Shown here: piece by piece, positions 44,689 to 55,556 of the stretch | Numbering within the stretch: the stretch's first letter is position 1 | Layout: every line of letters starts with the position of its first letter | Assembly (NCBI RefSeq): GCF_001586275.1 | Contig: NZ_CP014545.1 | Span: 2,816,501 to 2,880,500 of the forward strand | DNA: 64,000 bases | DNA from: Sphingorhabdus sp. M41 | Lineage (GTDB): Bacteria > Pseudomonadota > Alphaproteobacteria > Sphingomonadales > Sphingomonadaceae | Direction: 5' to 3' | The notes under the pieces: model-generated | The model's database searches: none | Told to the model about the DNA's origin: nothing | The model's input: only the letters and a program-made list of their open reading frames with translations | Program-made: the position numbers and the translations under genes

Positions 44689-44713
44689 GACGCGCAATTG
44701 GCTCATTGGTTGC
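44689..44713 (-). promoter_or_regulatory. EcfG-like promoter (GCAAC variant) of the hemerythrin-DUF421 operon
   Basis: On the minus strand GCAAC (44709-44713) is followed after 16 bases by CGTC (44689-44692), about 32 bases upstream of the start codon. It differs from GGAAC-N16/17-CGTT at two positions, but the same GCAAC occurs ahead of three other island transcripts. Confidence 0.5.
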
Positions 44714-44733
44714 ATCTGCTTGGTTGCATCTGC
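44706..44733. repeat. Perfect 14-base tandem repeat
   Basis: TTGGTTGCATCTGC occurs twice head to tail. Each copy contains GGTTGCAT, the reverse complement of the ATGCAACC promoter element. The copy nearest the gene supplies the putative -35 of the hemerythrin operon. Confidence 0.85.
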
Positions 44734-45084
44734 GCGGTCCGCATGCCTTATTGATCGGAGGCAATCTTAGTACACAGTCTCTCGTGCTGACGGGACGGCT
44801 GCCAACTAATTGGTTTCTCGGCGGCAAAAATGCCCGTCGAAAATAAATGCAATGTCCCGGGAACCAATTTTAACGACAAGTGTTGTCAAGATTGAATGGA
44901 TGTCGACCTCTGACCCGGTGTTGCTTTCATTCCTCAAAAACCAGCTGGGAAATTCGCCCGATCGTATCCCCCCCGTTTACCAACGGCCGAATTTCCCAGC
45001 AACTTTTCACTCATCAATTCTGATATATCTGCGATTCTCCGGAACCGGCGCGGCATATGCTGTCAGCCCAAGGCCCGGTCACGC

Positions 45085-45116
45085 AAAAAAATGGCCAGGA
45101 CATAATGCCTGGCCAT
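45085..45116 (-). terminator. Intrinsic terminator of the acidic lipoprotein gene
   Basis: On the minus strand ATGGCCAGG (45108-45116) pairs with CCTGGCCAT (45091-45099) around an 8-base loop and is followed by seven T. It lies 26 bases after the stop. Confidence 0.85.
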
Positions 45117-45141
45117 CGTCGTATTAATAAATTTCGAAAAA

Positions 45142-45369
45142 TTATTGTTCGGAAGGCATCTTCACGTCAACGTCAGGAACGTCGACCGTGACTTCTTCCG
45201 TACCGACTTCAACATCGGCGGTTTCGACGTCGATCTCAGGCAGTTGGCCTGCATCGCCGGAAACGTCAACGTCCATGGAAGGCATTTCGCCTTCTTCCGT
45301 AACATTGGCTTCACAAGCGGAGAGCGCCAAGCCAGCCGTCATCACTGCAGCAATTGCAATTTTTTTCAT
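45142..45369 (-). CDS. Small acidic lipoprotein with DVDV repeats
   Basis: 75 residues. The start ATG at 45367-45369 has GGGAG six bases upstream. The signal peptide ends in lipobox LSAC, giving a mature protein of about 55 residues with almost no basic residue (one Lys near the end). It is built of Asp/Val/Glu repeats such as MDVDVSGD, IDVETADVEV and VDVPDVDVK. The alternation of acidic and beta-branched residues suggests an extended or beta structure able to bind cations. It has its own near-perfect EcfG promoter and terminator, so it is a monocistronic stress gene. No family recognised. Confidence 0.82.
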   Translation of the reverse strand: MKKIAIAAVMTAGLALSACEANVTEEGEMPSMDVDVSGDAGQLPEIDVETADVEVGTEEVTVDVPDVDVKMPSEQ

Positions 45370-45400
45370 TATGAACTCCCTATATTGGTTCGGTTTATGC

Positions 45401-45426
45401 AACGCCTATGTTCTACACAAAGTTCC
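45401..45426 (-). promoter_or_regulatory. EcfG promoter of the acidic lipoprotein gene
   Basis: On the minus strand GGAAC (45422-45426), 17 bases, CGTT (45401-45404): an exact match to the EcfG consensus. The start codon is about 32 bases downstream of the -10. Confidence 0.75.
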
Positions 45427-45440
45427 ACAATAACCAAAAT

Positions 45441-46178
45441 TTATTCGCGCCCTAACCGCATGCGAAAGGCGTCGAGATGAAAATAGCTGGAATCAAATTG
45501 ACTGATCTCGGCAAGCCGCGCTTCGTCCTTGAACAGAATCCAGCCATTGTCGCGCTCCACCAAGCCATCCCGTTCCAGCTGACGCAATATCCGGTTGGTA
45601 TGAATGGGGGTCAAACCCAGTGCATCTGCGATGACCGTCTGGGTGAGCGGTACGCGAAACCCGTCGTTTGTACCCGCCCCGGTAATCAGCACGCGCCGAT
45701 AAAGCTCGAGCAAAAAATGCCCGATTCTTTCCCGGGCTGTCTGCTTGCCATTTCTAACGATCTGCTCGCGCAAAAACGCTTCTTCCTGAACCTGCATCCA
45801 CCAGAATGCGAGAGTCAATTTCCCGGATTCCGTCAACAGGCGCCGGAATACCGAGGGCCTCACCGACAAGCCGGTTAGGTTCGTCACTGTTTTTACCGAA
45901 TGGTCTGCTTCGGCGGCAACCAATACCTGAAGATCGAACATATCCCCTGGCAGCAACACGTTCAGAACCTGGCGCCGGCCGTCCTCCAGAGTCTTGTATC
46001 GGATCGCCCAGCCTTCCTTTACGATCAGCACGCTATCCATTTCCTGGCCAGCATCGACGATTTCCGTATTTTTCTCGAAATGCTGCTCTCGCCCATCAAT
46101 CTGCATGATCACTTGCCGGTCAGCCTCATCCAGATCGGCATAAAAGGATATTCGTCTTAACAGGGCCTTTTGCGCCAC
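45441..46178 (-). CDS. Crp/Fnr family transcriptional regulator
   Basis: 245 residues. Cyclic-nucleotide-binding-like fold (about 20-130) and a C-terminal winged helix with VPLTQTVIADALGLTPIHTNRILRQLERDGLV. No Cys cluster for an iron-sulfur cluster is present at the N-terminus, so it is not a classic Fnr. The start is GTG at 46176-46178, which overlaps the stop of the HWE kinase by one base. Together they form an operon with an EcfG-type promoter. Confidence 0.92.
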   Translation of the reverse strand: MAQKALLRRISFYADLDEADRQVIMQIDGREQHFEKNTEIVDAGQEMDSVLIVKEGWAIRYKTLEDGRRQVLNVLLPGDMFDLQVLVAAEADHSVKTVTNLTGLSVRPSVFRRLLTESGKLTLAFWWMQVQEEAFLREQIVRNGKQTARERIGHFLLELYRRVLITGAGTNDGFRVPLTQTVIADALGLTPIHTNRILRQLERDGLVERDNGWILFKDEARLAEISQFDSSYFHLDAFRMRLGRE

Positions 46179-47683
46179 TAACCGATTCCTTCTTCAGGAG
46201 CAGGGAAAGTTATGGTGCATATGAGGCCGTCGGCCGTCCAGTCCCTGACAATCTCTCCGCGCAAGTTTCGGGTGATGCTATGATCGATCAGCGAAGAGCC
46301 AAAACCGCCACTGGACGGGGCGACATCCGACTGGGGGCCACCGCTTTCCGACCAGCGCAATTCAACAATATCCTGTCCCTCTTCGGTTCGGACATCCCAC
46401 TTGATCCTGACAAGTCCTTTTTCAGCGGTCAGCGCTCCATATTTCGCCGCATTGGTCGCCAGTTCATTGAGGACGAGCGATATCGAAACCATCGCATTCT
46501 CTGCCAGAATGATATCCGGACCGGACCAGCGCACTCTCGGATAGGTCATGCAGAGATCTTTCACCAGCGCGGCAAATGATCCGGTTACAAAATTGGTGTC
46601 CAGCAATATTTGCTGGGCCCGATTGAGCGCCCGCAGCCGATTATTGATCCGCTCGATATAATCATCAATCGATGTCGCCGAATTTTTGGTCAGCGCCATG
46701 ATCGATTGCAGCGTCGCGAAAAGGTTGCGCAGGCGGTGATGCAGTTCGCGCGTGTGGAGCCGCAGCTGTTCCTGCTGATCGACGGAATGGGTAATGTCCT
46801 TGTTGACCCCGGTCAGCGTGGGACGCCCGTTCGCTTCCAGATAGTCGCCATATCCCTCCACCCATCGGATTTCTCCCGACGGTAAAACGATACGAAACCG
46901 CGCTTCATATTTCTCACCCGGTGCTGCCGCCGCGTTCATCGCGTCGGTGACAGTCTCGCGATCTTCGGGGTGAACACGGGCCATTGCGCTTTCAACTTGG
47001 GTAAGCGCTTCGCCTGCATCCTCTCCCCAGATTTTCATATAAGCGCCGCCCCAATCGATCAGCCCAGTTTCAAGATCGATCCGAAAGCTGGCAATATCAC
47101 TGAGGGCAAGCGTAAGATCCAGATTGGAGCGGTCGATGGCAGCATTTTTTTGCGCCTGTTCACGCAAACTGATCTCGCGGCTTAACTCCATTTCACTCAT
47201 TACGATATCGGCCATGCTTGTCAGCTGATTCAATTGGCTTTTTGTAATGCGAAAACGCTCGACCGTGTCAGCGACCCAAAGCGCACCAAGAACCATGCCA
47301 TTGGGAGCAATCAATGGCGCGGCAGCGAAAAAGCAGACGGACGGTTCCCCGATTACCAGAGGATTGCGGTCATAGCGCAAATCACGTGAAGCGTCCTTGA
47401 TGACCAAAGGCTCGCGAGCCTCAATCATCGGCGCGCACAGGGAAACATCCCGAGCAGCATAGCCCTCGGCAAAGCCGACCGAAGACTTGAACCATTCGCG
47501 GTCGGCATCGATGAATGAGATTGATGCCATCGGTGCGGCGAAAATATCGGCGATCAATTGCGTAATCCGGGCAAAGGCCGCATCCGGCGCTTTATCGATA
47601 ACCTCATAGCCACGGAGCGTTGCCAGACGCTCGGCCTCCATGGCCGGCTCTAGCTCGTTGTGGATCTGATTGCCCGCATTCAT
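46178..47683 (-). CDS. GAF-PAS HWE-family sensor histidine kinase
   Basis: 501 residues, soluble. GAF domain (about 20-165), PAS domain (about 190-300), then an HWE kinase core: the H box RELHHRLRNLFATLQS with phospho-acceptor His315/316, ALVLNELATNAAKYGAL-type N box (NELATNAAKYGAL) and LRWSESGGP, which carries the WxE signature. HWE and HisKA_2 kinases are the known inputs to PhyR, so it is a good candidate for the local GSR sensor. The ATG at 47681-47683 has AAGGA six bases upstream. The next gene encodes a Crp/Fnr regulator. Confidence 0.93.
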   Translation of the reverse strand: MNAGNQIHNELEPAMEAERLATLRGYEVIDKAPDAAFARITQLIADIFAAPMASISFIDADREWFKSSVGFAEGYAARDVSLCAPMIEAREPLVIKDASRDLRYDRNPLVIGEPSVCFFAAAPLIAPNGMVLGALWVADTVERFRITKSQLNQLTSMADIVMSEMELSREISLREQAQKNAAIDRSNLDLTLALSDIASFRIDLETGLIDWGGAYMKIWGEDAGEALTQVESAMARVHPEDRETVTDAMNAAAAPGEKYEARFRIVLPSGEIRWVEGYGDYLEANGRPTLTGVNKDITHSVDQQEQLRLHTRELHHRLRNLFATLQSIMALTKNSATSIDDYIERINNRLRALNRAQQILLDTNFVTGSFAALVKDLCMTYPRVRWSGPDIILAENAMVSISLVLNELATNAAKYGALTAEKGLVRIKWDVRTEEGQDIVELRWSESGGPQSDVAPSSGGFGSSLIDHSITRNLRGEIVRDWTADGLICTITFPAPEEGIG

Positions 47684-48042
47684 ATCTGGTCCTTGTTTCC
47701 CACGCCCGATCCGCCGATCAACGCCCAAACGAATGACTCCCGATCTTGTTGCACGCGGTCGGAACCAAAGACGGAAGCCGCGCGTAGCAAAAAATGGGGG
47801 CCTGCTCGGGTCGAATAAAACATGACTTTTACATGAATAATGATGATCGTGAAGAACTATATGAAATGCTTGAAGTTATCGGCAATGCAAAATTGGTAGG
47901 CGAGAGATCCACCGCTTTGGAAGACCTCCCCATAGATCAAAAGCGCGATCGCAAATTTAGCGATCTACGGGTGGAAATAATCCGTTTTGACGTCCCTTGC
48001 ATAGACCCGAGCAACAATTTGCAATCATACGGCTCAGACCAT
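47684..48042. other. Intergenic region upstream of the HWE kinase
   Basis: About 360 bases. It carries the GCAAC-type promoter of the kinase at 47728-47752. A plus-strand frame from 47833 begins plausibly but runs through a terminator into the antisense of the DUF883 gene. A near-EcfG motif, GGAAC-N17-CGTA, lies on the plus strand at 47761-47786. Confidence 0.4.
47728..47752 (-). promoter_or_regulatory. EcfG-like promoter (GCAAC variant) of the HWE kinase operon
   Basis: On the minus strand GCAAC (47748-47752), 16 bases, CGTT (47728-47731). The -10 is a perfect EcfG match and the spacing is standard; only the second base of the -35 differs. The start codon is about 45 bases further on. Confidence 0.6.
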
Positions 48043-48078
48043 AAAAAAGGTGAGGGAATTTATTTCCCTCGCCCCTTT
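48043..48078 (-). terminator. Intrinsic terminator of the DUF883 gene
   Basis: On the minus strand GAGGGAA (48064-48070) pairs with TTCCCTC (48052-48058) around a 5-base loop, and is extended by AAAGG/CCTTT. A run of six T follows. It lies about 20 bases after the stop. Confidence 0.75.
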
Positions 48079-48099
48079 CACTCCAGCATTTCTTATAGC

Positions 48100-48390
48100 C
48101 TAACGGCGGGCCATCAATGCGCCAATAATCAATCCCACTCCTGCTGTGGCTGCTATACTCACGATCGGATTGTCCTGAATCGTCGCCTGCGCTTTTTTGC
48201 GTCCTTTGGTTCCGGCCTCAACCGCATTGGCGCGCGCGGCGTCAAGCTTGGTTTTCGCGTTGGCACGTAATTCCAATGCGTTGGCCTGGGCATCGGCCTT
48301 GACGGATTTGGTCAAGGTTGCCAGATCATCCTTTAAAGTTTGCAAATCCGATTTTACCGCGCCCAATTCTTCCGAATAATTACCTGTCAT
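48100..48390 (-). CDS. DUF883 (ElaB/YqjD-like) membrane-anchored protein
   Basis: 96 residues. Long amphipathic helix (about 8-70) with heptad-like LQTLKDDLATLTKSVKADAQANA followed by a single C-terminal membrane helix (VSIAATAGVGLIIGALM) and RR. Related E. coli proteins bind ribosomes and tether them to the membrane in stationary phase. GGAG lies upstream of the ATG. A GGAAC-N16-CGTA promoter-like element is placed 35 bases upstream. Confidence 0.88.
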   Translation of the reverse strand: MTGNYSEELGAVKSDLQTLKDDLATLTKSVKADAQANALELRANAKTKLDAARANAVEAGTKGRKKAQATIQDNPIVSIAATAGVGLIIGALMARR

Positions 48391-48424
48391 TTCTTTTTCT
48401 CCAGCTTCTGTTTAATACACAGTC

Positions 48425-48449
48425 TACGACCCATTTCCAGATTGGTTCC
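48425..48449 (-). promoter_or_regulatory. EcfG-like promoter of the DUF883 gene
   Basis: On the minus strand GGAAC (48445-48449), 16 bases, CGTA (48425-48428). One mismatch from the EcfG consensus in the -10. Confidence 0.5.
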
Positions 48450-48505
48450 GTTTCGAACCCCAAAATCCAAGGATTAACGCATTATCTGCCAAGCGAAATT
48501 ATTAT

Positions 48506-48530
48506 GGAACCCTTTCCCATATCATGCGTT
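48506..48530 (+). promoter_or_regulatory. EcfG promoter of phyR
   Basis: GGAAC (48506-48510), 16 bases, CGTT (48527-48530): exact consensus. The phyR start is 27 bases downstream, with GGAGA between. Autoregulation of phyR by EcfG is well known. Confidence 0.85.
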
Positions 48531-48556
48531 TGGAGCCCATTACGGAGACACAATAT

Positions 48557-49342
48557 ATGTCATTAGCTGAAACTTTAAAACCGCATCTTCCTTATCTCCG
48601 ACGCTATGCCCGAGCTTTAACGGGCAGCCAAAAAAGCGGCGATGCATTTGTGAAGGCAACCCTCGAAGCCATTATCGCCGATCCCGGATCTCTGTCAGAC
48701 GACAATAATGTGCGGGTTCACCTATACCGGATTTTCTCTGGCATCTGGGAAAGCGCGAACGTCAGTGTCACGGCAGATCCTGATGACAATACGGCTCAGA
48801 GCCATTTGAACGCAATTCCAGATATCAGTCGGCAAGTCTTGCTGTTGACAGCGCTGGAGGGTTTTTCGATCAGCGAAGTCGCAAAAATCGCAGATGTTGG
48901 CGTGAATTCGATCAACGGATTGCTGGAAGACGCCATTGCAGAGATCGACAATGAAATTCGGTCAGATGTCCTTATTATCGAGGACGAGGTTCTGATCTCG
49001 ATGGAATTGCAGCAAATCGTATCGGGCTTAGGACATCGAGTGTGCGGAACCGCGACTACCCACAAGGGCGCACTCGAAGCCGTTGCCAAGGCAAAACCAA
49101 GCTTGGTACTCGCCGATATTCAGCTGGCGGACGGGAGCTCGGGTATTGATGCTGTAAAAGATATCCTGGAAAAGATTTCGGTGCCAGTAATCTTCATTAC
49201 TGCGTTTCCCGAGCGCTTGCTCACCGGGGAACGCCCCGAGCCGACATTTCTTATCACCAAGCCGTTCCAGCCCAATGCTATTCGGGCAGCGATCAGCCAG
49301 GCGCTATTCTTTTCAACCGCAGCGCGGGACTCTCGCGGATAA
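48557..49342 (+). CDS. phyR: PhyR, general stress response anti-anti-sigma regulator
   Basis: 261 residues. N-terminal sigma-like domain (about 1-130) that mimics EcfG, and a C-terminal receiver domain with the phospho-acceptor Asp187 in VLADIQLADGSSGID, the PhyR-typical signature. When phosphorylated it binds NepR and frees EcfG. Start ATG 48557 with GGAGA eight bases upstream. Immediately preceded by a perfect EcfG promoter. Here phyR is convergent with nepR-ecfG. Confidence 0.97.
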   Translation: MSLAETLKPHLPYLRRYARALTGSQKSGDAFVKATLEAIIADPGSLSDDNNVRVHLYRIFSGIWESANVSVTADPDDNTAQSHLNAIPDISRQVLLLTALEGFSISEVAKIADVGVNSINGLLEDAIAEIDNEIRSDVLIIEDEVLISMELQQIVSGLGHRVCGTATTHKGALEAVAKAKPSLVLADIQLADGSSGIDAVKDILEKISVPVIFITAFPERLLTGERPEPTFLITKPFQPNAIRAAISQALFFSTAARDSRG

Positions 49343-49365
49343 TCCTTGTATGGATGCAAATCGGC

Positions 49366-49418
49366 ACAGCGCCTCGGGCCCGTTCAAGCAATGTGAACAG
49401 GCGCGAGGCGCTGTTTTT
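49366..49418 (+). terminator. Strong terminator after phyR
   Basis: ACAGCGCCTCG (49366-49376) pairs with CGAGGCGCTGT (49404-49414), with a nested GTTCA/TGAAC hairpin (49382-49386, 49394-49398) in between and a run of T after it. Confidence 0.85.
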
Positions 49419-49474
49419 CCGTTAAACAAACGGTACCGCTCTTGTTGCTGATTTAAATGACAGGCAGAGTCGCG

Positions 49475-50065
49475 CTAGGGCGCAATTTTTTCCACCGCAC
49501 CAATGATATTTTCAAGCGCCGTAGCCGTCAGACTGGCATGGCCGTCCGAGGCAGACGTAAACCGCCCCTCCTCGAGGATGACTTCCAGCGTCTTGCGTGC
49601 GCGTGATACGCGGCTTTTCATTGTACCGACGGCGCAATTAGCGATTTCCGCCGCTTCTTCGTAGGAATAGCCACCCGCGCCGACCAATATTATGGCTTCT
49701 CGCTGGTCATCCGATAATTCCATCAGCCCGCGCTGCAAATCGGCAAGATGAAGAGGCTCCTGCTGGGGAGCTGGCGCTGATAATATTCTCTCCGCAACCA
49801 GTTCGTCGTAATTTCCGCTGAATTTCTTGCGGCGCATGCTTGAAAAAAATGTGTTGCGCAAAATAACGAATGTCCATGCGCGCATTGAAGTTCCGGCAAT
49901 GAAGCGGTCCCGTGCAGCCCAGGCTTTCAACAATGTATCCTGAACCAGATCATCCGCAACGTCCCGATCGCCCGCCAGACTGCGCCCAAACGCACGCAAA
50001 TGCGGAATCGCTTCTGTCAATTGCTGTTTGAATTGCGCCGGTGGTAAAGCCTGAGGCTTACTCAT
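49475..50065 (-). CDS. ecfG: EcfG general stress response sigma factor
   Basis: 196 residues, an extracytoplasmic-function sigma factor of group ECF15. Region 2 (about 20-90) includes DVADDLVQDTLLKAWAARDRF and AWTFVILRNTF; region 4 (about 125-180) has LSDDQREAIILVGAGGYSYEEAAEIANCAVGTMKSR. The start ATG at 50063-50065 lies inside the nepR gene with an 8-base overlap, so translation is coupled. The 93-base upstream extension in frame is not supported. Confidence 0.96.
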   Translation of the reverse strand: MSKPQALPPAQFKQQLTEAIPHLRAFGRSLAGDRDVADDLVQDTLLKAWAARDRFIAGTSMRAWTFVILRNTFFSSMRRKKFSGNYDELVAERILSAPAPQQEPLHLADLQRGLMELSDDQREAIILVGAGGYSYEEAAEIANCAVGTMKSRVSRARKTLEVILEEGRFTSASDGHASLTATALENIIGAVEKIAP

Positions 50066-50294
50066 TGTCGTCCGACCCGCTAGAGTCAGAATCGTCGTCA
50101 TCATCCAGCTGATCCAAAAGCGCCAGCATATCGTCCGGTAGTGGCTCATCCAGAACACTGAGATACATGTTCTTAAGCCCGAGGCCCAATCTCTGTTGCA
50201 TGTCTTCCTTGCTTTTCACCGGCATGTCCTTTGACTGCTGTCCGTCATCATCAAGCTTCGATGAATCGGTTTTATCTTTTCCTTGGCTCGCCAA
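50058..50294 (-). CDS. nepR: NepR anti-sigma factor
   Basis: 78 residues. Short NepR-type protein with an acidic flexible N-terminus and the two-helix LGLGLKNMYLSVLDEPLPDDMLALLDQL core (about 35-62) that holds EcfG, followed by a strongly acidic tail. The start is a TTG, six bases after GAGG; an ATG 5 bases further up is out of frame. It overlaps ecfG by 8 bases, which couples the two products. The GCAAC-type promoter lies in the next upstream region. Confidence 0.93.
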   Translation of the reverse strand: MASQGKDKTDSSKLDDDGQQSKDMPVKSKEDMQQRLGLGLKNMYLSVLDEPLPDDMLALLDQLDDDDDSDSSGSDDNE

Positions 50295-50334
50295 ACCATG
50301 CCTCGTTTTCGTTTATTTTAATGCTTGAAGAAAG

Positions 50335-50359
50335 AACACCTGATGTCCGTAAAGGTTGC
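50335..50359 (-). promoter_or_regulatory. EcfG-like promoter (GCAAC variant) of nepR-ecfG
   Basis: On the minus strand GCAAC (50355-50359), 16 bases, TGTT (50335-50338), about 41 bases upstream of the nepR start. Two mismatches from GGAAC/CGTT. The GCAAC copy belongs to an 11-base tandem repeat. Confidence 0.45.
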
Positions 50360-50371
50360 ATAAAGGTTGCA
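50350..50371. repeat. Perfect 11-base tandem repeat upstream of nepR
   Basis: TAAAGGTTGCA occurs twice without a gap. Each unit carries GGTTGCA(T), the same motif as in the hemerythrin upstream tandem repeat, at the same distance from the start codon (56-77 bases). Confidence 0.85.
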
Positions 50372-50577
50372 TAGAAATTTTTATCGGGAATGTCCACTTG
50401 GCAGGGACAAACCAAGCCAGCCCGCGTTAGCGACATGAACGTTCAAAATCGAAATCACAAAAATTGGGCACGGCAGAAAACAAATTCAATCTGAATATGG
50501 AATGCGAAAGAAGCCGAGAAAGTTCACCCCGCTATCAGGATGCACAGCATCAATTCGCCCCTATTCATTCATCCCAT

Positions 50578-51006
50578 TCATCGTTCGGGGCGTTTGGCAC
50601 CGAGAGAGCGGAAACTCTGAAACACCATCCGAGTAGCGTCTGTTACCGCAACCCCGGACAGTAAGGCAGAAAGGTCGGACTGTCCCAAGCCTTGTGTCAC
50701 CGGCAAATATTGCCCCGCCATATTCCATTGTGAAAATTGGCGGCGGTGCGCCTGCTGTTGGCTGAGAATATTCATCCCGCCGTGCCGCTCGTCCATTCTG
50801 ATCCGGTGCATGAGCTCGTTGGTCGCGGACCGATCCCCTTCAAGGAACTGCATGAAATTGAATCCGTTGAAAACAAGCAATCCGGTAATGCCGAAACGCC
50901 GATTGTTCCGTTGCGATGTTGTCATCAGCGCCAGAAAATCGTCTTGATCAAGGCCAGGTCTTGCGGTGCTCACATAAATGAGAGAGGTGATCGCTTGGTC
51001 GGGCAC
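50578..51006 (-). CDS. BLUF domain blue-light receptor
   Basis: 142 residues, essentially one BLUF domain that binds FAD. Counting from the GTG at 51004-51006 (AAAG six bases upstream), Tyr11, Asn35, Gln53, Trp94 and Met96 match AppA Tyr21, Asn45, Gln63, Trp104 and Met106 at identical spacing. That is the full photoreactive set. The C-terminus is a short extension without an output domain, so it must act through a partner. It lies between nepR and the MscS gene; a TTG at 51012 is an alternative start. Confidence 0.93.
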   Translation of the reverse strand: MPDQAITSLIYVSTARPGLDQDDFLALMTTSQRNNRRFGITGLLVFNGFNFMQFLEGDRSATNELMHRIRMDERHGGMNILSQQQAHRRQFSQWNMAGQYLPVTQGLGQSDLSALLSGVAVTDATRMVFQSFRSLGAKRPER

Positions 51007-51112
51007 AGACAACTTTCTATTGGCGGTGGTTTCTTAGCCCAACCTCTTATTGAGCTGCGAAATACTCGATTTTCAATCGGGTCGCTCTAACATAGATTAG
51101 CGCTATGAACCA

Positions 51113-52501
51113 TCATTCCACTGGTTGTTGATCGTCGAGCAGATCGGATAAACCATCATCGGATCGCTCCGACGCCACCAATTTCTCAACATGATCCTCT
51201 GGCGAAACGTCAAATGCTTTCTTTGCGACCGCTTTTTCAGGTTTTTCGATCACCGTATCACTCGGCTCAGTTTTGCTGAAGGTCTCGACCAATTGTTCTG
51301 CCCCATCATCGAAGCGCAATCGATATATCGGCTCCGGCAGGGCGAAGCCGGACTCTTCCAAAGCATTTTTGGTAACGCGGATCGCCGCGCCCCTTGCCTT
51401 GTTGAAGTCGCTGTTCCGCTGGTCGATCCAGCCGTGAAAGGTGATAAGGATATTGGAATCACCAACTTCCCTGATTTCTGCTGTTGCTTCGGGTTCGTTC
51501 AGGACGAATTCCTGCCCGTTGATCGCCTTCAATCCGGTTTCAATCGCTGCGGCCGGGTCGTCATTGGCATCCACGCCGAGTTCAAAGCTAAACCGACGCT
51601 GCGGGTTGCGAGAATAATTTAATATTTCCGCTTTGAACACCGTGGCGTTGGGAATCCGCAGGTGATTTCCGTCCAACGTCATCAGGATTGTTGCGCGCGA
51701 GGTTAGCCGGACCACCCTGCCCTGTTGCGCGCCGATCAGCACATGATCATTGGCGCGAAAAGGCTGACGAATGCTCAGCATGATGCTGGACATATAATTG
51801 TCGACGGTATCGCGCAGGGCAAAGCCAACCGCCAAACCGATTACGCCCGCGCCGCCGAGCACGGCTCCGAGCAGAGCGGTCGCGTTCAGGATATCCAGGC
51901 CGATAAATATCCCGAGCAGGATGAAAATGACACGGACAAAACCAGCGATGAGTTCGGCCAGGAATATATTTGGCGTCACCCGTTCCCAGAACCCCATGCG
52001 CGAGGCAAAGAAATGGCCCAATAGCCCCACGGTTATCGCGACGAGAAAGGCTATTCCGATGAGCGGTAGCGCCGAAAGGAAATTCTGCAAGCTCGCGCCA
52101 AATTTATCGACTACCGGCTCAACATTGCTACCCACCGAAACATCACGTTCAAACTTTGTTTCTACCGTAACGACGCCGGAAACGCGCTGCGCAATAGCTT
52201 TGGCGCGGTCAGCCGATGCATTGTCGGCGATTGACCCGGACAGGCTTACAACGCCGGCGTCCACCGCCACGACAACATTTTCCAGGCCTTTGATCTCCTG
52301 AAAAATACCGCGCAATCGAACGGCGATAGCGTCATCGTCGGTGACGGGCGCCGCCGGATCTATCGCGGGTTCCGGTTCGGCGGCCGGTTCGTTCAGCTGC
52401 ACCTGGGCACTGGCCTGACCGACAATCGCGTGCGTAGGGGTGGTTCCGGAAATGGCTATTGCCAGTAAGATCATGGTCAGAAGCCAGCGATATTGGGACA
52501 T
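51113..52501 (-). CDS. BON-MscS mechanosensitive channel
   Basis: 462 residues. Signal peptide (about 1-26), BON domain (about 55-120, VRLRGIFQEIKGLENVVVAVDAG), then membrane helices (145-235) and an MscS channel core with LGGAGVIGLAVGFALRDTVDNYMSSIML and the PFRANDHVLIG region. The C-terminal 80 residues are acidic. Opens on membrane tension. A GGAAC-N16-CGTA element is upstream. The BLUF gene lies 106 bases downstream and may share the transcript. Confidence 0.94.
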   Translation of the reverse strand: MSQYRWLLTMILLAIAISGTTPTHAIVGQASAQVQLNEPAAEPEPAIDPAAPVTDDDAIAVRLRGIFQEIKGLENVVVAVDAGVVSLSGSIADNASADRAKAIAQRVSGVVTVETKFERDVSVGSNVEPVVDKFGASLQNFLSALPLIGIAFLVAITVGLLGHFFASRMGFWERVTPNIFLAELIAGFVRVIFILLGIFIGLDILNATALLGAVLGGAGVIGLAVGFALRDTVDNYMSSIMLSIRQPFRANDHVLIGAQQGRVVRLTSRATILMTLDGNHLRIPNATVFKAEILNYSRNPQRRFSFELGVDANDDPAAAIETGLKAINGQEFVLNEPEATAEIREVGDSNILITFHGWIDQRNSDFNKARGAAIRVTKNALEESGFALPEPIYRLRFDDGAEQLVETFSKTEPSDTVIEKPEKAVAKKAFDVSPEDHVEKLVASERSDDGLSDLLDDQQPVE

Positions 52502-52526
52502 AATTCTCCGATCAGGGACATTCGCA

Positions 52527-52551
52527 TACGTTGCAGCATAGCAAGAGTTCC
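52527..52551 (-). promoter_or_regulatory. EcfG-like promoter of the MscS gene
   Basis: On the minus strand GGAAC (52547-52551), 16 bases, CGTA (52527-52530), 26 bases upstream of the start. One mismatch in the -10. Confidence 0.55.
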
Positions 52552-52574
52552 TGCGAACGGGAAAAATTTAGTTT

Positions 52575-52599
52575 GGAACCGACAAGCCGGTCCGATGTT
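52575..52599 (+). promoter_or_regulatory. EcfG-like promoter of the DUF2383 operon
   Basis: GGAAC (52575-52579), 16 bases, TGTT (52596-52599). One mismatch in the -10. Together with the MscS promoter this makes a divergent, shared EcfG-controlled region. A GTTGTTC/GAACAAC inverted repeat (52601-52623) lies in the leader. Confidence 0.5.
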
Positions 52600-52632
52600 G
52601 GTTGTTCATATGCAACGAACAACGAGGACGAA

Positions 52633-53076
52633 ATGACAAACAACACCACCACCGAAATACTGAACGACGTTCTGGAAACCCTGATCGACTCAACGCATGG
52701 CTATGAAAAAGCCGCCGAGATTGCAAATCGGAGCACTTTCAAGGATTTCTTCACCCGCCGCGCCGCCTCCCGCCGCGCGATGGCCGCTGCCGTCCGCAAC
52801 GAGATAGTGGAACTCGGAGACACGCCCGAAAGCGACGGCACGATTCTGGCATCGGCCCATCGCGTTTTCATGGGCCTGAGCGCTGCACTGCAGGATAATG
52901 ACGAAGCCGCGATCGAGGCGGTTGAGACAGGCGAAGAATATCTCCGTACGAAATTCGAAAAGGCACTCGAGCATGATGACTTGTCGGTATCCGCCAAGAC
53001 ACTGTTGCGGAACTACCAGGGTGAGCTGCGGGCGGATGGCCGTCTGATCGACCATCTGGAAGAAGCGACTTCCTAA
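52633..53076 (+). CDS. DUF2383 (PA2169-type) four-helix protein
   Basis: 147 residues. Ferritin-like four-helix bundle with ILNDVLETLIDSTHGYEKAA, FKDFFTRRAASRRAMAAAVRNEI, and YLRTKFEKALEHDDLSVSAKTLL, the PA2169 family pattern. Iron or stress role is inferred from the family. GAGGACGAA lies just upstream of the ATG at 52633. Followed by a 61-residue membrane protein gene after 39 bases. Confidence 0.9.
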   Translation: MTNNTTTEILNDVLETLIDSTHGYEKAAEIANRSTFKDFFTRRAASRRAMAAAVRNEIVELGDTPESDGTILASAHRVFMGLSAALQDNDEAAIEAVETGEEYLRTKFEKALEHDDLSVSAKTLLRNYQGELRADGRLIDHLEEATS

Positions 53077-53115
53077 ACACGCATTTCAGGCATTATTTAC
53101 ACAAAGGAACTCATC

Positions 53116-53301
53116 ATGGAATATGGAATTATTGGACTTCTGATTTTGGCTCTCGATATCTGGGCGCTGCTTAGCGTTTGGGGAAGCGGCTCTTCAATGG
53201 GTGCCAAGATTATCTGGTCGCTGATCATCTTGATCCTCCCGGTCATCGGATTATTGCTCTGGTTCTTCGTAGGACCAAGAGGCTCTGCCCGGGCTATCTA
53301 G
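53116..53301 (+). CDS. PLDc_N domain small membrane protein
   Basis: 61 residues. Two membrane helices with GLLILALDIWALLSVWGSG and WSLIILILPVIGLLLWFFVGPRGSA. This is the PLDc_N fold usually found at the N-terminus of cardiolipin synthases but here encoded alone. AAAGGA lies 8 bases upstream of the ATG. In a cluster with DUF2383 and a DUF202 protein. A phospholipase D-like protein is encoded less than 1 kb away. Confidence 0.85.
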   Translation: MEYGIIGLLILALDIWALLSVWGSGSSMGAKIIWSLIILILPVIGLLLWFFVGPRGSARAI

Positions 53302-53422
53302 TCTGAAGCGACTAAACTGTTATATATCTGTCAGAGCAGGCCTCGATATTCCTCCAAAGAGGGATATCGGGGCTGCCTTGATATGTAGGCAATGGTATCG
53401 CAGCCGAAGGCCATAGGGGACC

Positions 53423-53830
53423 ATGATGACAAAGAAACCATCCAGCACGGACCTGGCAAATGAACGCACAGATCTTGCGGAGGATCGAACGGAGTGGGCT
53501 GAAGACCGGACGATCATGGCCAATGAACGGACTTTCGCGGGCTGGATGCGCACCGGTTTGGCTGCGGTTGGGATAGGACTGGGGTTCAACGCGCTATTTG
53601 GGAAACTCGAACCGCTTTGGGTGCCAAAGGCAATCGCAACGCTGTTCATGATCATCGGTATTTTCATTTTCTGGGTAGCGCAGCGCAATGGTTGCGCAGT
53701 GCAAATTCGATTGAATTCGCATCATGCAACCCCGGTAAAGCCCACCAATATGCGGATAATATCCGGCTTGATGGCGTCCGGCGCTATCGCATTGATCATC
53801 GCTATCTGGACGATGAACTTTGGCCGCTGA
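53423..53830 (+). CDS. DUF202 (YidH-type) membrane protein
   Basis: 135 residues. N-terminal repeats of DLANERTDLAEDRTEWAEDR and RTIMANERTFAGWMRTGLA mark the DUF202 family. Three helices follow (about 40-60, 70-90, 112-132). Function is not known. The GGGGACC just upstream of the start can serve as a weak ribosome binding site. An imperfect hairpin lies at about 53341-53373. Confidence 0.87.
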   Translation: MMTKKPSSTDLANERTDLAEDRTEWAEDRTIMANERTFAGWMRTGLAAVGIGLGFNALFGKLEPLWVPKAIATLFMIIGIFIFWVAQRNGCAVQIRLNSHHATPVKPTNMRIISGLMASGAIALIIAIWTMNFGR

Positions 53831-53907
53831 ATTGGCATCCTATGCAACCAAAGCGCTGCTCATCGGTAGATTGAATGAACATGATCTAGCAAAAACAGGA
53901 GAATGAC

Positions 53908-54021
53908 ATGCGTTACATCATCAGAACCATCGCGGCCGGTGCTATTTCGGTAGCAGCCAGAATCATCATCAAGAAAATTCAGGAAAAAGACCAGCCGAAA
54001 CAAACCGAAACCGCCGCCTGA
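53908..54021 (+). CDS. 37-residue small protein, unknown
   Basis: MRYIIRTIAAGAISVAARI then a basic to polar tail ending in TETAA. The first 25 residues are an amphipathic or membrane-associated helix with interspersed Arg and Lys; the last 12 are charged. AGGAG lies 6 bases before the ATG, which is a strong ribosome binding site. An ATGCAACC element lies 59-66 bases upstream. No named family recognised. Confidence 0.62.
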   Translation: MRYIIRTIAAGAISVAARIIIKKIQEKDQPKQTETAA

Positions 54022-54066
54022 CGGTGACTTGAAGGGATACTTCAATCGATCGGATTTGGTGAGCTG

Positions 54067-55479
54067 TCAAATGATGCCTGCGAATACGTCATCGGCCCGC
54101 TTCGGGTCGAGGACATCATTGTCCGCCAACCAGGCTTCTGCCGCTCCGACATCCGGCGTTTGATATGGCCGAAGCTGGCGACCCGCTTTATTGAGAGCTT
54201 CGATGGTAACGATAAGGGAATTGGTCTGTTCAATAGAACTGCCAACTTCTCGCTCCTCCACCCCAAGATGCTCGGCCAGAAGATCGTTCCGGACGCTGGC
54301 AATCTGGCCGGGCACCGTTCCGCCTTGAACCGCGGAGGCATCGATCGCCACATCGCACTCGCTGTCAAAACCGAGCGAGCGGTTATTAAAATTGGACGAT
54401 CCGATGCGCAGATACTGATCATCGACAATCATTATTTTGGCGTGGACGTAAATCGGCGTGCCAGCGGCATTAAACGGGTGCAACATACGAAACCGGTCAT
54501 ATTTGTCCCGCGCTTTCACTGCTTCAAACAATCGGGCTCGCGTTGAATCCATGATTTCGGATTCTAGCCAGCCCTCGGCACTTTCCGGATTGACGATTAT
54601 GACTTCGGGCCCGTCGGGCTCTGACAATCGTTCGGCAATGGCGCCGGCGATCCGGGCGGATGCAAAATATTGGCTCTCCGCATAGATGAACTGCTTCGCC
54701 GCGCCGATCAGGTCGAGATACAGGCTTTCAATTTCATGTACGCCCTGCTGATCGTCCATTTCCGGCAATGTCCGCGCGATGGCTACGGGACAATCGGTAA
54801 AATCTGCGTCCAAGCCCGCTGGCCAACAGTCCGCGCTGGCACTGACCGCCTTGACTTGCTTACCGCCAGCGTCCCGCCAATGTTGTCCGGCATATTCGGA
54901 TAAAGCCCGCGCAACGTCTCCCTGAACCACCATCGCCGCGTCATGCCAGGGTCCGGCATCATTGCCGTCCGGCTGATACCGCTGCTCCTGGCTCTCTTCG
55001 TGAGCGCGTGTATCCCAGCGATTATTCGCAACATCGATACCACTGCAAAAAGCCGTGTCTTCATCGATCACAATGATCTTTTGATGATGCGCTGCCCCCA
55101 CCGGATGGTGAGAATCGAGTTTAAAATGAACCCTTGGATGCAAATACCAGCGCGCCAGCGTCAAAAGCCCGTTAAGCCGGACAAAGGATTTTAAAGCCCC
55201 GGTATCCCAGCGCAGCACATAGATGTCGAGATCGCGGTTTTTCTTGAGCAGCCAATCGAAATAGGCTCCGACTTGCAAAGGGCCGTCCGGTTGCTCCGAT
55301 GTGTCATGCATTTCCACGCGTTCATCGAAATCCCAGCCCAGCAGCATGATGCGTTGCTTGGCCTGCGCGAGAGACTTTCTCACCGCCCGGAAATAATTTT
55401 CCCCGTCGATGAGAACCGCAGCCCTGTCAGCATGTTCCACACGCCAGCAATTTTCTCCGGGCTTGAATATATTTGACAT
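54067..55479 (-). CDS. Phospholipase D-like protein (cardiolipin synthase type)
   Basis: 470 residues. Two HKD motifs: HHQKIIVIDEDTAFCSGID near residue 130 and VHAKIMIVDDQYLRIGSSNFN near residue 340, so the active site looks complete. No N-terminal membrane helices, unlike ClsA. It could transfer phosphatidyl groups or act as a nuclease or phospholipase. GGAGAGG lies 11 bases upstream of the ATG. Its start region faces the divergent GNAT gene. Confidence 0.92.
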   Translation of the reverse strand: MSNIFKPGENCWRVEHADRAAVLIDGENYFRAVRKSLAQAKQRIMLLGWDFDERVEMHDTSEQPDGPLQVGAYFDWLLKKNRDLDIYVLRWDTGALKSFVRLNGLLTLARWYLHPRVHFKLDSHHPVGAAHHQKIIVIDEDTAFCSGIDVANNRWDTRAHEESQEQRYQPDGNDAGPWHDAAMVVQGDVARALSEYAGQHWRDAGGKQVKAVSASADCWPAGLDADFTDCPVAIARTLPEMDDQQGVHEIESLYLDLIGAAKQFIYAESQYFASARIAGAIAERLSEPDGPEVIIVNPESAEGWLESEIMDSTRARLFEAVKARDKYDRFRMLHPFNAAGTPIYVHAKIMIVDDQYLRIGSSNFNNRSLGFDSECDVAIDASAVQGGTVPGQIASVRNDLLAEHLGVEEREVGSSIEQTNSLIVTIEALNKAGRQLRPYQTPDVGAAEAWLADNDVLDPKRADDVFAGII

Positions 55480-55531
55480 AGGCGATCAACCTCTCCGGTG
55501 GGGTAGAGTTCCCGGTAGCACAATAATATAT

Positions 55532-55556
55532 GCAACCGTTCCAATATTTGTGCGTT
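55532..55556 (+). promoter_or_regulatory. EcfG-like promoter (GCAAC variant) upstream of the GNAT gene
   Basis: GCAAC (55532-55536), 16 bases, CGTT (55553-55556). The -10 is exact. It lies 135 bases ahead of the better supported ATG at 55691; an in-frame ATG at 55565 would begin almost at the predicted transcript start. Confidence 0.55.

Follow-up and report, generated by a model that had tools for sequence, protein, structure and literature searches.

The window analyzed here, a stretch of 64,000 nucleotides from Sphingorhabdus sp. M41 (contig NZ_CP014545.1, positions 2,816,501 to 2,880,500), carries the genes phyR, nepR and ecfG of the general stress response (GSR). EcfG is an extracytoplasmic function (ECF) sigma factor, which we take to be a member of group ECF15. 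The GSR promoter of other Alphaproteobacteria is GGAAC-N16/17-CGTT, and the second base of its -35 element is usually G. Around phyR-nepR-ecfG ten sites of this layout were found which carry either GGAAC or GCAAC. With a probability of roughly 0.93 these sites are EcfG-dependent general stress promoters, and GCAAC is a regular EcfG -35 element of sphingomonads which is read by the same EcfG. This assignment is based on the comparison of sequences, and according to it all ten sites would start transcripts in the window strain. As a variant of the EcfG -35 element GCAAC is already published and not new.

Conserved sites around phyR-nepR-ecfG

A site was scored when G[GC]AAC was followed, after 16 or 17 bases, by at least three of the four letters of CGTT and was located no more than 110 bp upstream of a called gene. 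An earlier reading of the window without database searches (the sequence-only reading) had described nine sites. Inspection of the letters confirmed their coordinates, strands, -35 elements, spacers and -10 elements, including the 16-base spacer in eight of the nine and the 17-base spacer at the acidic lipoprotein gene. GGAAC was found at the promoters of the genes for the acidic lipoprotein (45401 to 45426, minus strand, N17-CGTT), DUF883 (48425 to 48449, minus, N16-CGTA), PhyR (48506 to 48530, plus, N16-CGTT), MscS with BON domain (52527 to 52551, minus, N16-CGTA) and DUF2383 (52575 to 52599, plus, N16-TGTT). GCAAC was found at the promoters of the genes for hemerythrin (44689 to 44713, minus, N16-CGTC), the HWE histidine kinase (47728 to 47752, minus, N16-CGTT), nepR-ecfG (50335 to 50359, minus, N16-TGTT) and GNAT (55532 to 55556, plus, N16-CGTT). 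The tenth site, GGAAC-N16-GGTT (55488 to 55512, minus), had been overlooked. It lies 8 bp ahead of the called start of a phospholipase-D-like gene (54067 to 55479, named by eye) and is conserved in relatives. For the ten sites the distance to the gene start was 8 to 44 bp, and three pairs of promoters are divergent (DUF883/phyR, MscS/DUF2383 and phospholipase-D-like/GNAT). Pfam matches agreed with the names given before to the downstream gene products, namely hemerythrin, HWE kinase, DUF883, PhyR, EcfG, NepR, MscS with BON, DUF2383 and GNAT; for the acidic lipoprotein the Pfam search gave no match.

The sites are confined to one part of the window. Genes were called with a simple codon-based caller trained on the window, which gave 66 genes in total. 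A site was present at 10 of the 16 genes in the cluster between 44 and 56 kb versus 0 of the 50 genes elsewhere (Fisher test, p = 4e-8). When the 16 upstream regions of the cluster were shuffled 1000 times with preservation of dinucleotides, a mean of 0.30 genes and a maximum of three genes carried a site. Six genes of the cluster are without a site. Among them are ecfG, which overlaps nepR, the gene at 45441 to 46178 close behind the HWE kinase gene and the gene at 53116 to 53301 close behind the DUF2383 gene. These three probably share operons with the genes upstream of them.

A scan of genome contigs for PhyR led to 26 loci, 12 of which (L031 to L042) are close relatives labeled Parasphingorhabdus, Sphingorhabdus, Sphingopyxis, Sphingomonadaceae or Sphingomonadales. 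Four further genus genomes were added. Gene order in the twelve loci is mostly kept relative to the window. The comparison with related genomes, which the sequence-only reading had suggested, revealed that the sites are largely kept at the orthologous genes there and in the added genomes, where upstream alignments display them as conserved islands within diverged DNA. With position 2 of the -35 element left free, the raw scan of 150 rows gave 144 full hits with G in 90, C in 49, A in three and T in two cases. For curation 13 rows without a recognizable orthologous promoter were dropped (best hits G 4, C 4, A 4, T 1), and seven rows were reset from the best-scoring to the aligned site; five of these had another hit in the leader (G 2, C 2, A 1), and in two a GTAAC closely preceded the aligned GCAAC. 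The curated set comprises 137 orthologous sites from 17 genomes with G at position 2 in 86 and C in 51 of them, A and T being absent. GT at the center of the -10 element is invariant in all 137 sites, while the first and last letters of the element are variable, and the -35 element always sits 16 or 17 bases from this GT-containing -10 element.

Among orthologous promoters G and C are exchanged in the same column, with the remaining -35 letters unchanged. The nepR promoter (16 orthologous sites: C 12, G 4) exhibits GCAAC with TGTT or GGTT in most relatives, but GGAAC at the same place in L040 to L042 and L291. GCAAC is likewise found at the promoters of the HWE kinase gene (15 sites: C 14, G 1) and the hemerythrin gene (13 sites: C 12, G 1), but GGAAC replaces it in L037 and L042, respectively. 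In the opposite direction, the lipoprotein promoter (16 sites: G 13, C 3) is GGAAC, but GCAAC in L031, L032 and L035, and the phyR promoter (17 sites: G 16, C 1) is GGAAC, but GCAAC in L292. Only G was observed at the promoters of DUF883 (16/16), MscS (12/12), DUF2383 (14/14) and the phospholipase-D-like gene (9/9), and only C at the GNAT promoter (9/9). Since position 2 is a G:C pair in either orientation and never A:T in the curated set, the data may point to a requirement for a strong pair or for a minor-groove or shape feature, and not for a major-groove contact to one base. The EcfG stretch GTMKSRVSRAR, presumably the recognition helix, is identical in genus genomes with GCAAC and with GGAAC at nepR; a search for an altered helix among the GCAAC-bearing members of the genus found none.

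Domain and sequence matches revealed that EcfG, NepR and PhyR are all encoded in the genome. PhyR (48557 to 49342, plus strand), a response regulator combined with an anti-anti-sigma factor, matched PF22029, PF22233 and PF00072 and scored above the cut-off of NF006623. Its frame should begin at 48557, because an ATG at 48524 falls inside the promoter. The general stress sigma factor EcfG (49475 to 50068, minus) matched Sigma70 r2, Sigma70 r4_2 and PhyR_sigma2 and ranked first among three ECF matches of the genome. The anti-sigma factor NepR (50058 to 50294, minus) was above the cut-off of PF18557 (NepR) and below that of the NCBIfam NepR model. The HWE histidine kinase (46178 to 47683, minus) contains PAS and GAF domains (PF07536, PF08447, PF01590). 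Upon stress this kinase would phosphorylate PhyR, which would then take NepR off EcfG, as established for the family. RNA polymerase carrying EcfG would read a -35 element G-(G/C)-AAC and a -10 element N-GT-(T/A/C) at a distance of 16 or 17 bases, with region 4 of EcfG binding G-S-AAC and region 2 binding N-GT-N. EcfG would thereby activate its own operon nepR-ecfG, phyR, the neighboring kinase gene and seven more neighboring transcription units. A search restricted to GGAAC would overlook 51 of the 137 conserved EcfG-type sites of the locus, or about one third, including the operon of the master regulator.

Some features of individual leaders were also observed. The nepR leader (50335 to 50375) contains an 11-bp tandem copy of ATGCAACCTTT, which the aligned relatives are without, and in the hemerythrin leader (44689 to 44730) an additional copy of GCAACC is located just upstream of the site. 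At locus L031 a GCAAC promoter is followed by an MscS-like gene (294 aa, by eye) and then by the GNAT gene, and in relatives the promoter orthologous to the GNAT site of the window precedes the MscS-like gene. This gene is absent from the window between 55532 and 56305, where the beginning of its coding sequence seems to continue into the GNAT frame.

Spelling of the -35 element in the genome and the family

The genome of 3.34 Mb contains 91 exact matches to G(G/C)AAC-N16/17-CGTT versus 187 matches to the reversed control pattern, and most of the matches lie inside genes. For 90 of the 91 matches the position was classified, with a distance of up to 150 bp from a gene counted as upstream. This was the case for 5 of 19 GGAAC-N16 and 8 of 25 GCAAC-N16 sites, and among the first 30 matches by position of each control pattern for 4 of 30 (CAASG) and 3 of 30 (GWAAC). 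The sequence-only reading had expected GCAAC-N16-CGTT to be overrepresented upstream of genes. A mild excess over the controls was indeed obtained (8/25 versus 7/60, p = 0.03), but it was weaker when the two window sites were removed (6/23, p = 0.17). Further GCAAC candidates precede genes for a host-attachment/baeRF protein, a DksA/TraR-type zinc-finger protein, a small unnamed protein (first L148 site) and a DJ-1/PfpI protein. The candidates at L123 (TPR-like) and at the second L148 site (AroA-like), both named by eye, are doubtful. In addition, GGAAC-N17-CGTT was found at L131 1001 to 1026 (G000:C1:1725999-1726024), 48 bp upstream of the called start of a single-domain response regulator, which we assume may be SdrG-like.

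The attachment gene was followed in more genomes (loci L196 to L225 and L243 to L252). Within the genus all 12 close orthologues carry GCAAC (11 with CGTT, one with CATT). Two more distant relatives from EcfG-bearing genomes have GGAAC with CGTT (L253) and no site in the leader (L254), respectively. Membership of this gene in the stress regulon is probably common.

Within the genus, position 2 is identical in 0.86 of all pairs from the same promoter (0.90 when averaged over promoters with N16 sites) versus 0.49 between promoters. However, given that spacers are 0.51 identical, an identity of 0.80 to 0.89 would be expected even at a position where G and C are interchangeable. Letter conservation at this scale was rejected as proof of selection, as slow exchange of G and C alone could give it. 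Therefore, the claim of selection rests on a comparison at the scale of the family, which was made for two genes: nepR in the best 28 of 106 and the attachment gene in the best 27 of 56 matching genomes. The attachment loci are 28 to 47% identical, some may be paralogues and some share a genus; L198 (another genus, no site in a wider look), L260 and L261 were left out.

For nepR a site was detected in 21 of 28 loci, always with GGAAC and in 20 cases with exact CGTT, and none in the region scanned at the other seven. A looser scan added one GCAAC (L182), with an 18-base spacer and CATT. The attachment gene had a site with exact CGTT in 16 of 27 loci, 15 with C and one with G. Eight of the remaining loci were without a site in the region scanned and three gave weaker best hits only (two with A, one with G); a wider look uncovered GCAAC with CGTT in two of the eight. 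Among sites with exact CGTT, 15 C and one G at the attachment gene thus stand against no C and 20 G at nepR (Fisher test, p = 3e-9). Spacer identity at this scale is 0.2 to 0.35 in most columns. Because the surrounding DNA is scrambled to this extent, shared descent cannot easily explain the opposite letters. Both genes seem to keep opposite spellings across the family, a result from these two genes which goes beyond the literature found. The spelling of the -35 element may be specific for a gene and selected, in which case it would offer a one-base handle on how the stress regulon grades its genes. The GCAAC-TGTT of nepR in the window genus looks derived in comparison to GGAAC in other genera. 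A strict N16 rule for GCAAC was also considered and rejected; all C sites of the genus have N16, but the attachment-gene sites of other genera often have N17.

We tentatively consider that GGAAC and GCAAC represent two functional classes of EcfG promoters, with the letter of each gene under selection across the Sphingomonadaceae, although the odds are rather against it. The letter might then set the response at low levels of free EcfG, or insulate a promoter from other ECF sigma factors that read GGAAC; such effects would be hidden in vitro at saturating sigma factor. If this were true, the nepR-ecfG promoter of the genus, by changing from GGAAC-CGTT to GCAAC-TGTT, would have rewired the feedback loop of the master regulator.

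Probable assignment of the GCAAC sites to EcfG

In 15 of 32 genus genomes neither EcfG nor PhyR was matched at E ≤ 1e-20 and the PhyR_sigma2 domain was absent (G122, G123, G124, G129, G134, G135, G138, G140 to G146 and G148). Completeness is 99% or more in 13 of these 15 genomes. All of the 15 but G129 lack the MscS-BON gene (E ≤ 1e-60), and so does the EcfG-bearing G130. By the searches for EcfG and PhyR, the general stress response seems to have been lost in about half of the genus, which provides a natural set of knock-outs. GCAACC-N15-CGTT occurs 3.01 times per Mb in the 17 EcfG-bearing and 1.96 times per Mb in the 15 EcfG-less genomes (p = 0.003), or 2.83 versus 2.04 times per Mb in genomes that are at least 97% complete (p = 0.02). 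The reversed control pattern showed no such difference (2.88 versus 3.30, p = 0.55; p = 0.53 at 97% completeness or more). In a count that was not corrected for common ancestry of the genomes, the GCAAC form is thereby linked to the presence of EcfG.

Several results weigh against an assignment to EcfG. The comparison of densities ignores shared descent. Moreover, it cannot separate two sigma factors, because the genomes without EcfG also lack another ECF sigma factor, which shares 37% identity with EcfG. Outside the window the excess of exact GCAAC-N16-CGTT upstream of genes is only weak, as given above, and at a spacing of 17 bases none of 24 GCAAC and two of 22 GGAAC matches with CGTT are upstream. 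The L123 site is found again with nearly identical sequence in at least six relatives, as would be expected of coding DNA. Relatives of the attachment gene are present in five EcfG-less genomes, and none of the five leaders contains GCAAC. In three of the five, GGAAC-N16-CGTT is situated 75 to 77 bases before the attachment gene, but within the terminal part of an upstream frame that has about 450 codons. The leader site is likewise absent from L254, an equally distant relative of the attachment gene in an EcfG-bearing genome, so that its absence does not distinguish the genomes without EcfG.

Other explanations differ in how well they account for these data. Random matches to a loose consensus would agree with the genome-wide picture, in which 67 of the 90 classified exact matches fall inside genes. 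For the cluster this reading, to which we give practically no weight, is already refuted by conservation: orthologous sites are kept while their spacers are about 51% identical, and the ratio of 10/16 to 0/50 genes and the shuffling mean of 0.30 also speak against chance. TGCAACC could instead be bound by another regulator whose site overlaps the promoters, as the additional GCAACC copies directly upstream at nepR and hemerythrin in the window might indicate. This is very improbable, given the single copy at nepR in 11 aligned relatives, the swaps of position 2 to G and the distance of 16 or 17 bases to a GT-containing -10 element in 137 of 137 sites.

It appears equally improbable that a second EcfG-like sigma factor owns the GCAAC promoters instead of EcfG. 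The sequence-only reading had suggested such a paralogue, and Sphingopyxis granuli does carry two (PMC7083833). Two strong EcfG matches were also detected in four of 106 matching family genomes (G001, G012, G041 and G093). In the window genome, however, the EcfG matches were the window copy (100%) and ECF sigma factors with 37% and 29% identity, so that a second clear EcfG was not found. The 37% protein (L058 1492 to 1980; G000:C1:1224448-1224924) matches PhyR_sigma2 above cut-off and may be fairly closely related to EcfG rather than a remote ECF sigma factor. At E ≤ 1e-20 it was detected in 10 of 17 EcfG-bearing and in none of 15 EcfG-less genus genomes. Against a role at the GCAAC promoters, its gene is followed by a putative anti-sigma gene of its own and faced by a gene for an S8-type peptidase (read by eye). 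In G121 (locus L292), which is 100% complete, the PhyR_sigma2 model matches PhyR and EcfG only and no third protein, yet GCAAC is present at the hemerythrin, HWE kinase, phyR and nepR promoters. A paralogous EcfG is therefore not needed to explain GCAAC. GCAAC and GGAAC moreover interchange at orthologous promoters, and in vitro each of the two paralogues of Sphingopyxis granuli TFA, EcfG1 and EcfG2, gave transcription from the GCAAC promoter of gsp (De Dios et al. 2020, PMC7083833).

It is somewhat less improbable, but still unlikely, that GCAAC represents a GGAAC which has decayed or has been weakened deliberately, with a lower output that, for instance, limits the autoregulation of nepR. 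The derived look of GCAAC-TGTT at nepR fits such a loss, since both the -35 and the -10 element left the consensus in the window genus, while the sites of other genera are GGAAC and have CGTT in 20 of 21 cases. In 15 of the 27 loci of the family, however, the attachment promoter combines GCAAC with a perfect CGTT. In vitro, one GGAAC and one GCAAC promoter gave levels that did not differ at saturating sigma factor, as reported for this single pair (PMC7083833). In the table of Gottschlich et al. for Sphingomonas melonis, which lists the GCAAC motif for six of the 50 top EcfG-dependent genes (2019, PMC6599016 Table 1), genes with GCAAC are as EcfG-dependent as those with GGAAC. The median expression ratios are -3.95 for six GCAAC rows and -3.85 for 20 GGAAC rows (p = 1.0), in a table preselected for strong dependence. 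The suggestion that GCAAC marks weaker promoters finds no difference to build on in either source as far as the data at hand extend. Acceptance of GCAAC by EcfG, which the sequence-only reading had proposed as well, agrees with the G/C swaps at orthologous promoters, the published transcription from gsp and the six S. melonis genes.

Comparison with known general stress promoters

The GSR promoters known from Alphaproteobacteria in general have the same layout as the sites described here and are also located ahead of phyR and nepR-ecfG. Their second -35 base is usually G, unlike that of the GCAAC sites. The general stress promoters of Sphingopyxis granuli most often carry GGAAC or GCAAC as the -35 box, and up to 14 different -10 boxes occur in them (PMC7083833). 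Strain TFA and the window share both -35 elements, the 16-base spacer and a flexible -10 element including CGTT, TGTT and GGTT. The two differ at the central operon, where nepR2-ecfG1 of TFA has GGAAC-N16-CGTT and nepR-ecfG of the window has GCAAC-N16-TGTT. They also differ in the number of sigma factors; TFA possesses two EcfG paralogues (PMC7083833), whereas no second EcfG above 37% identity was found in the window strain. For Sphingomonas melonis Fr1 the motif is stated as GGAAC-N17-20-GTT (PMC6599016), with no comment on GCAAC in the passages considered, unlike the N16/17 spacing and the GCAAC sites of the window. Nevertheless, Fr1 resembles the window genome in that a gene named "protein required for attachment to host cells" carries GCAAC in Fr1 (PMC6599016), as does the gene of that family, matched by its name, in the window genome.

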